From Rhodobacter sp. (GTDB taxonomy: Bacteria; Pseudomonadota; Alphaproteobacteria; Rhodobacterales; Rhodobacteraceae), in contig PNJK01000032.1 in assembly GCA_013821825.1 (NCBI GenBank), positions 1 to 38,423 on the forward strand: a stretch of DNA of 38,423 nt, in the 5' to 3' direction. A program made the position numbers and the translations under genes. Under the pieces are notes generated by a model. The model had not been told where the DNA came from, made no database searches, and worked only from the letters and a program-made list of their open reading frames with translations. Below, piece by piece: positions 37,199 through 37,935 of this stretch (positions are counted from its first letter, which is position 1; each line of letters opens with the position of its first letter).

Positions 37199-37348
37199 AT
37201 GAAAGGGTCGTCCGCGCTTGGTCTGGTCGCAAATCCTCCCGCCAAAGGCAGGGTCGGGCCGGTGGCGCCCCCGGCGCGCAACGGCGAGACAGAAGCGGAG
37301 CGGCGGAACCCGCTCGGCATGCTGGCGCGGGGCGTCGTTGGCAGCTGA
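37199..37348 (+). CDS. Possible 49-residue small protein
   Basis: An ATG-to-TGA frame (MKGSSALGLVANPP...ARGVVGS) between glnE and the DUF2852 gene. It is basic, has no membrane segment, and only a weak CAGG three bases before the ATG. Third codon positions are mostly G or C but no more than expected in such DNA. Listed for completeness; it may be chance. Confidence 0.2.
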   Translation: MKGSSALGLVANPPAKGRVGPVAPPARNGETEAERRNPLGMLARGVVGS

Positions 37349-37366
37349 TGTGAATTATCTTCACAT
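37348..37366. promoter_or_regulatory. Inverted repeat ATGTGAA-N5-TTCACAT, copy 1
   Basis: A perfect seven-base inverted repeat with a TTATC spacer, 81 bases before the DUF2852 ATG. Its arms and spacer length are identical to those of copy 2 at 37406. The half-sites are seven bases apart when written TGTGA/TCACA, one more than in a CRP site. Confidence 0.6.
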
Positions 37367-37405
37367 ACCTCTTGATCCGCCGCCCCCGAATGTGCATCTT
37401 GGCGA

Positions 37406-37424
37406 ATGTGAAGAACATTCACAT
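37406..37424. promoter_or_regulatory. Inverted repeat ATGTGAA-N5-TTCACAT, copy 2
   Basis: The second copy, spacer GAACA, lies 23 bases before the DUF2852 ATG. Its centre is 58 bases from that of copy 1, between five and six helical turns. A dimeric regulator bound here would cover the likely transcription start. Confidence 0.6.
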
Positions 37425-37446
37425 CCCGCAACCTGGAGACCCGCCC

Positions 37447-37935
37447 ATGCAGACCTATTCCGACACCGCCCGGCCTGGCGGGATCCGTAACACCCTTCGT
37501 CGTGGCGAATCCTGGCTTGACCGTCGCGGCAAAGGGGCCTGGATCGCCGCAATGGTCCTGGGCTTCATCATCTTCTGGCCCGTGGGTCTTGCCCTTCTGG
37601 CCTACATGATCTGGGGAAAACGCATGTTTGCATCATCCTGCGGCCACCGCCGCGCCAACCCTGACCACGGCTGGGGCCGCCACGCCTATCGTGCGGCGCA
37701 AGCCACCGGCAACCATGCCTTCGACGGCTACAAGGCCGAGGCCCTGCGCCGGCTGGAAGAAGAGCAGGAAGCCTTCGAGGCTTTTCTGCAGCGCCTGCGC
37801 AACTCGAAGGACAAGACCGAGTTCGACGCCTTCATGGAAGACCGCGCCCGCGCCACGGCCGAACAGGATGCCACGGCATCCGAGGCCGGCAGTGATGCAA
37901 AGCCTGCCGACGGCGCGCGCGCCGGCGAATACTGA
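37447..37935 (+). CDS. DUF2852 membrane protein
   Basis: A 162-residue protein of the DUF2852 family, found mostly in alphaproteobacteria and of unknown function. Residues 31-56 form one or two close membrane helices (AWIAAMVLGFIIFWPVGLALLAYMIWGKRMF). A histidine- and arginine-rich stretch follows, then a charged helix (residues 95-130) likely to form a coiled coil, and an acidic, alanine-rich disordered tail. GGAG stands eight bases before the ATG at 37447; a TTG start further up would translate through operator copy 2. It is transcribed alone, between two inverted repeats and a strong terminator. Confidence 0.85.
   Translation: MQTYSDTARPGGIRNTLRRGESWLDRRGKGAWIAAMVLGFIIFWPVGLALLAYMIWGKRMFASSCGHRRANPDHGWGRHAYRAAQATGNHAFDGYKAEALRRLEEEQEAFEAFLQRLRNSKDKTEFDAFMEDRARATAEQDATASEAGSDAKPADGARAGEY

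Follow-up and report, generated by a model that had tools for sequence, protein, structure and literature searches.

A gene of the DUF2852 family in Rhodobacter sp. is preceded by two copies of the same inverted repeat, raising the question of which protein reads these copies and what it does to the promoter between them. Both lie near the end of the window, by which we mean the whole 38,423-nucleotide stretch of contig PNJK01000032.1 that was analysed. An earlier note on this DNA had reported two ATGTGAA-N5-TTCACAT repeats ahead of a DUF2852 membrane-protein gene. Both copies proved exact, with centres 58 bp apart, and the gene behind them matched PF11014 at E=8e-43 (145.7 bits, above the cut-off of 22.5). 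The elements of the region, in order, are as follows.

37348..37366, no strand assigned: candidate operator 1, ATGTGAATTATCTTCACAT, an exact match to ATGTGAA-N5-TTCACAT.
37372..37377, plus strand: predicted -35 element TTGATC, from sequence; of the 103 two-site loci, 98 have a TTG 5-6 nt downstream of operator 1.
37395..37400, plus strand: predicted -10 element CATCTT, from sequence, separated from the -35 element by a 17 bp spacer.
37406..37424, no strand assigned: candidate operator 2, ATGTGAAGAACATTCACAT, over the predicted transcription start; an exact match, kept in 98 distinct promoters.
37435..37438, plus strand: Shine-Dalgarno-like GGAG, from sequence.
37447..37935, plus strand: DUF2852 (PF11014) gene, 162 aa, with its ATG at 37447; Pfam E=8e-43.

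For the encoded protein, an AlphaFold model of low confidence (mean pLDDT 59, pTM 0.24) predicts a long hydrophobic helix plus two others, and a sequence search of the PDB returned a single match at E=0.78.

The two sites are the only exact copies in the window. When up to three mismatches were allowed, the window held four matches, whereas 100 shuffles averaged 0.59 and never gave as many as four. Across the whole genome, the relaxed motif ATGTRAA-N5-TTYACAT at up to two mismatches occurred in 12 places (the two exact ones in the window and ten others with two mismatches each), and its reversed control in none. The shorter TGTGAA-N5-TTCACA, at up to one mismatch, found two places in this genome and so did its reversed control, so the weight of the argument rests on comparative evidence.

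We drew that evidence from 295 sampled Rhodobacteraceae genomes (hereafter, the family) and from a class-wide sample of 289 genomes; the sampled genomes are mutually related, and p-values computed on them overstate independence. DUF2852 is present in 263 of the 295 family genomes and in 47 of the 289 class genomes. As the earlier note had proposed, related genomes were searched for the motif, which was neither absent from DUF2852 promoters nor at chance frequency: TGTGAA-N5-TTCACA occurred in 182 of 295 family genomes and its reverse in 7, and the relaxed motif in 232 and its reverse in none, controls that rule out a chance origin. Relaxed matches were found in 232 of the 263 genomes with DUF2852 and in none of the 32 without it; 140 genomes have two matches, 59 a single one, 31 three and 2 four. 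Among the 30 loci listed as matches to TGTGAA-N5-TTCACA, 29 stand directly before DUF2852, the exception (L028) being a match inside a 6-phosphogluconate dehydrogenase coding sequence. Chance matches do occur elsewhere: twenty further places, picked by hand for a second site in the genome or an unusual spacer, comprised 7 at DUF2852 and 13 at other positions; four of these 13 also fell inside 6-phosphogluconate dehydrogenase coding sequences, with L161 the same place as L028. Outside the family, three genomes (G330, G333 and G346) each contain a single relaxed match, away from any DUF2852 gene; two of them, G330 and G346, are class genomes without a DUF2852 match, and the reversed control matched 1 of 61 genomes (G346).

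The arrangement of sites and promoter is conserved along with the motif. Upstream of DUF2852 in 109 loci (L034-L142, in which a few species are present twice), sites at up to one mismatch number two in 103 loci, one in 4 and none in 2, and the paired sites are spaced by 58 bp in 44 and 59 bp in 52 of the 103, together 96. The same order of elements recurs in 98 distinct promoters: operator 1, then a predicted TTG-based -35 and a predicted CATCT-like -10, then operator 2 and the start codon. At the -10 position the consensus is cCcATcTt in 50 distinct promoters with a spacing of 59, and a weaker cC.at.T in 41 with a spacing of 58. The suggestion that the arms are under selection is borne out in these 98 two-site promoters, in which almost every arm position shows little or no variation, two symmetric R/Y positions being the main exceptions. 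The two sites differ in their preferred left arm, ATGTAAA being found in 76 of 98 promoters at site 1 against 3 of 98 at site 2, where ATGTGAA is preferred. The spacers, described earlier as unrelated, do look so between the window's two copies; across relatives that description fails, because spacers there are biased, mostly to A-A-A-C at site 1 and to A-G-N-C-A at site 2. Some operators (L206:1878-1902, L205, L208, L211 and L336) contain half-sites that overlap at a distance of six bases, as though two palindromes had been superposed.

A candidate for the protein that reads these sites is encoded upstream of DUF2852 in other genomes. Three such proteins (from L207, L023 and L205) carry TetR_N and TetR_C_33 domains above curated cut-offs; NCBIfam equivalog models score far below their cut-offs for three TetR proteins, and the best solved structure is 3on2_A, at 92 bits. 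A profile built from 18 DUF2852-linked proteins gives 334 bits with an orthologue in the genome under study, which lies outside the window (G000:C7:67202-67813, minus strand). This orthologue (L264:7206-7811) matches the TetR helix-turn-helix PF00440 at E=3.6e-13 (49.5 bits, cut-off 24) and TetR_C_33, PF13305, at 54.7 bits (cut-off 26.8). In the class sample, with the best 10 candidates per genome scored, TetR proteins of at least 200 bits occur in 34 of 289 genomes; every one of these 34 has DUF2852, and the 242 genomes that lack DUF2852 have no such TetR; a 178-bit protein in G604, encoded directly before DUF2852, was counted as linked. In the family, TetR was found at E<=1e-50 in 267 of 295 genomes: 256 have both TetR and DUF2852, 7 only DUF2852, 11 only TetR and 21 neither, the 11 with TetR alone running counter to a strict pairing. 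In a tree rooted at its midpoint, 24 DUF2852-linked proteins, 11 family TetRs and a homologue from G393 fall on one side of a branch (support 99/98), and 17 paralogues on the other. The regulator of the paired sites is likely to be this protein with TetR_N and TetR_C_33 domains. The earlier note had argued for a regulator different from CRP and for a dedicated one. The first point agrees with TGTGA halves seven bases apart and with the co-occurring TetR-family protein; the second fits the genus of the window, in which the relaxed motif occurs exactly twice in 27 of 32 genomes, extra sites being seen in some other genera. A dedicated, non-CRP regulator has thus probably now been identified.

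If this protein reads the site, the site should track its presence. We built a weight matrix from family sites only and ran it upstream of DUF2852 in all 43 DUF2852-bearing genomes outside the family, calling a site where the score exceeded 99% of a null of 7300 dinucleotide shuffles. Sites were called in 30 of 30 genomes with a linked TetR and in 0 of 9 without TetR (families f10, f80, f91, f107 and f123). In two loci of f117 (L311 and L312), a highly divergent TetR homologue is encoded on the opposite strand from DUF2852 and a variant of the palindrome scores above the 99% null point, perhaps reflecting replacement of the regulator; two loci at contig edges, one with a site, were set apart. 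Within the family, 31 genomes have DUF2852 and no exact motif; 30 of their loci were obtained, and of the 29 suitable for scoring 28 have a degenerate site. The remaining one, G167, is also the only DUF2852-bearing family genome of at least 95% completeness without a TetR match, and because its best score of 3.4 falls between the 95% and 99% null points, its sequence may be a remnant site. The other six TetR-less family genomes with DUF2852 keep a site (five exact, one degenerate); their assemblies are 62-92% complete, and tetR may therefore have been missed in them.

Gene order ties the regulator to DUF2852 in some lineages and to another gene elsewhere. Among the 26 non-family loci within L204-L233, 22 have tetR immediately before DUF2852 and in the same orientation, and 19 of these 22 also have a site (at up to two mismatches) before tetR itself. 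In the 29 family loci L235-L263, mostly of the genus Rhodobacter, no site at up to two mismatches was found before tetR. In the genome under study, tetR is unlinked to DUF2852 and sits behind a polyphosphate kinase 2 gene, the two nearly abutting on one strand (L264:7206-8671, G000:C7; PPK2 identified by Pfam PF03976). This order, tetR following ppk2 on the same strand, was seen in 30 of 33 distinct genomes (28 of the 30 loci L234-L263, plus G267 and G290); tetR lacks a preceding ppk2 in G331, which lies outside the family, in G004 and in G194, where it adjoins DUF2852. G267 and G290 show the order ppk2-tetR-operator-DUF2852, and 9 of the 30 loci from DUF2852-bearing family genomes without the exact motif have tetR just ahead of DUF2852. 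The simplest history would be that tetR moved away from DUF2852 yet stayed with ppk2 in Rhodobacter and others, with two operators remaining at the promoter. A weak lead is a two-mismatch match to the site just before ppk2 in five family loci (L240, L242, L247, L259 and L263); this match includes a Shine-Dalgarno-like stretch.

We consider it very probable that a TetR-family repressor with TetR_N and TetR_C_33 domains uses the two palindromes as its operators at the DUF2852 promoter. A TetR dimer on operator 1 would abut the -35 element and another on operator 2 would cover the transcription start, so that RNA polymerase would be kept off the promoter until some ligand frees the repressor. Comparison of sequences supplies the conservation of the operators, the geometry that brackets the predicted promoter, the co-occurrence and linkage with TetR, and the common TetR clade; that TetR binds these sites, represses and is released by a ligand we infer.

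The same regulator could act in the other direction, activating from operator 1 and fine-tuning from operator 2, as an activator or dual regulator. The place of operator 1 just upstream of the -35 would suit this, as would the different left arms preferred at the two sites; however, operator 2 covers the predicted transcription start, and in many non-family loci the site adjoins or overlaps the start of tetR, as in autorepression, which makes activation unlikely. We hold it to be very unlikely that another regulator, CRP-like, with a Fis-type helix-turn-helix or otherwise, binds the sites while TetR merely shares their distribution. The TGTGA half-site does resemble that of CRP, tetR stands away from DUF2852 in the genus Rhodobacter, and the site is retained in the six incomplete TetR-less genomes. 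Yet the halves are one base wider apart than in CRP sites, and outside the family the site precedes both tetR and DUF2852 and is absent where TetR is absent; moreover, inspection by eye of the neighbour clusters common to at least three of 80 family DUF2852 loci recognised no other transcription factor. Finally, each palindrome, read from its sequence, could form an RNA hairpin with a 7-bp stem and a 5-base loop, but the first of them precedes the predicted promoter, and conservation of the arms extends to their sequence and not just their pairing, leaving a role as RNA exceedingly improbable.

Under repression by TetR, the regulon would extend beyond one gene in some genera, because further sites precede genes for a nitroreductase, an NnrU-type protein or a coiled-coil protein. 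Among the matches listed, eight sites are extra to the DUF2852 pair: before the nitroreductase gene in three genomes, NnrU in two, the coiled-coil protein in two, and one other place. In three genera, the operator stands directly before the start codon of the nitroreductase-family gene (L327:2489, L328:2491 and L331:2465; confirmed by Pfam for L327 and L328, and by translation similarity for L331). Because it leaves no room for a ribosome-binding site, these transcripts are possibly leaderless. An operator also precedes an NnrU-type membrane-protein gene in two genera (L144:2998 and L329:2449; Pfam-confirmed at L329, by similarity at L144) and, again in two genera, a coiled-coil-protein gene (MADFDAQV...; L330:2518 and L333:2544) recognised by similarity of the translations, the L333 protein giving no match in a Pfam search.

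DUF2852 itself is named in only two papers of the open-licence library searched: one reports a DUF2852 protein at lower amounts in an envelope mutant (PMC6377625), and the other tabulates a DUF2852 gene among the genes and proteins of a microoxia comparison (PMC6515984). The passages of these papers that name DUF2852 give it no function. A sharply defined operator and its probable regulator give a first means of finding out under what condition, and perhaps through which ligand, DUF2852 is switched on. The change of linkage, from beside DUF2852 outside the family to behind ppk2 in Rhodobacter, would be a case in which regulator and target became separated but the operator was retained and doubled. 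Far more speculatively, and with rather low expectation, a ppk2-linked TetR sensor might couple redox or xenobiotic signals to an envelope protein of the DUF2852 family and, in some genera, have drawn in nitroreductase and NnrU genes as well, forming an undescribed alphaproteobacterial membrane-stress module.

Our searches of an open-licence library turned up no description of the TetR-DUF2852 pair or its motif. Among known sites, that of CRP is TGTGA-N6-TCACA. The half-site is the same; here the halves are one base wider and the co-occurring protein is a TetR, and a CRP-type site was rejected on spacing, the TGTGA halves being seven apart in both copies and in relatives. PadR-, TyrR- and PpsR/CrtJ-type sites are superficially similar palindromes with a different spacing, and NtrC-type sites, also superficially similar, have a loose TGT-N11-ACA pattern that agrees in spacing. 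The closest likeness is to TetR repressors with TetR_C_33 (PF00440 plus PF13305), which share both domains, a palindromic promoter site and, in many lineages, a linked and apparently autoregulated target; the system described here differs in its target, DUF2852, a domain-of-unknown-function protein. Paired operators under a TetR repressor are in themselves a known kind of arrangement.
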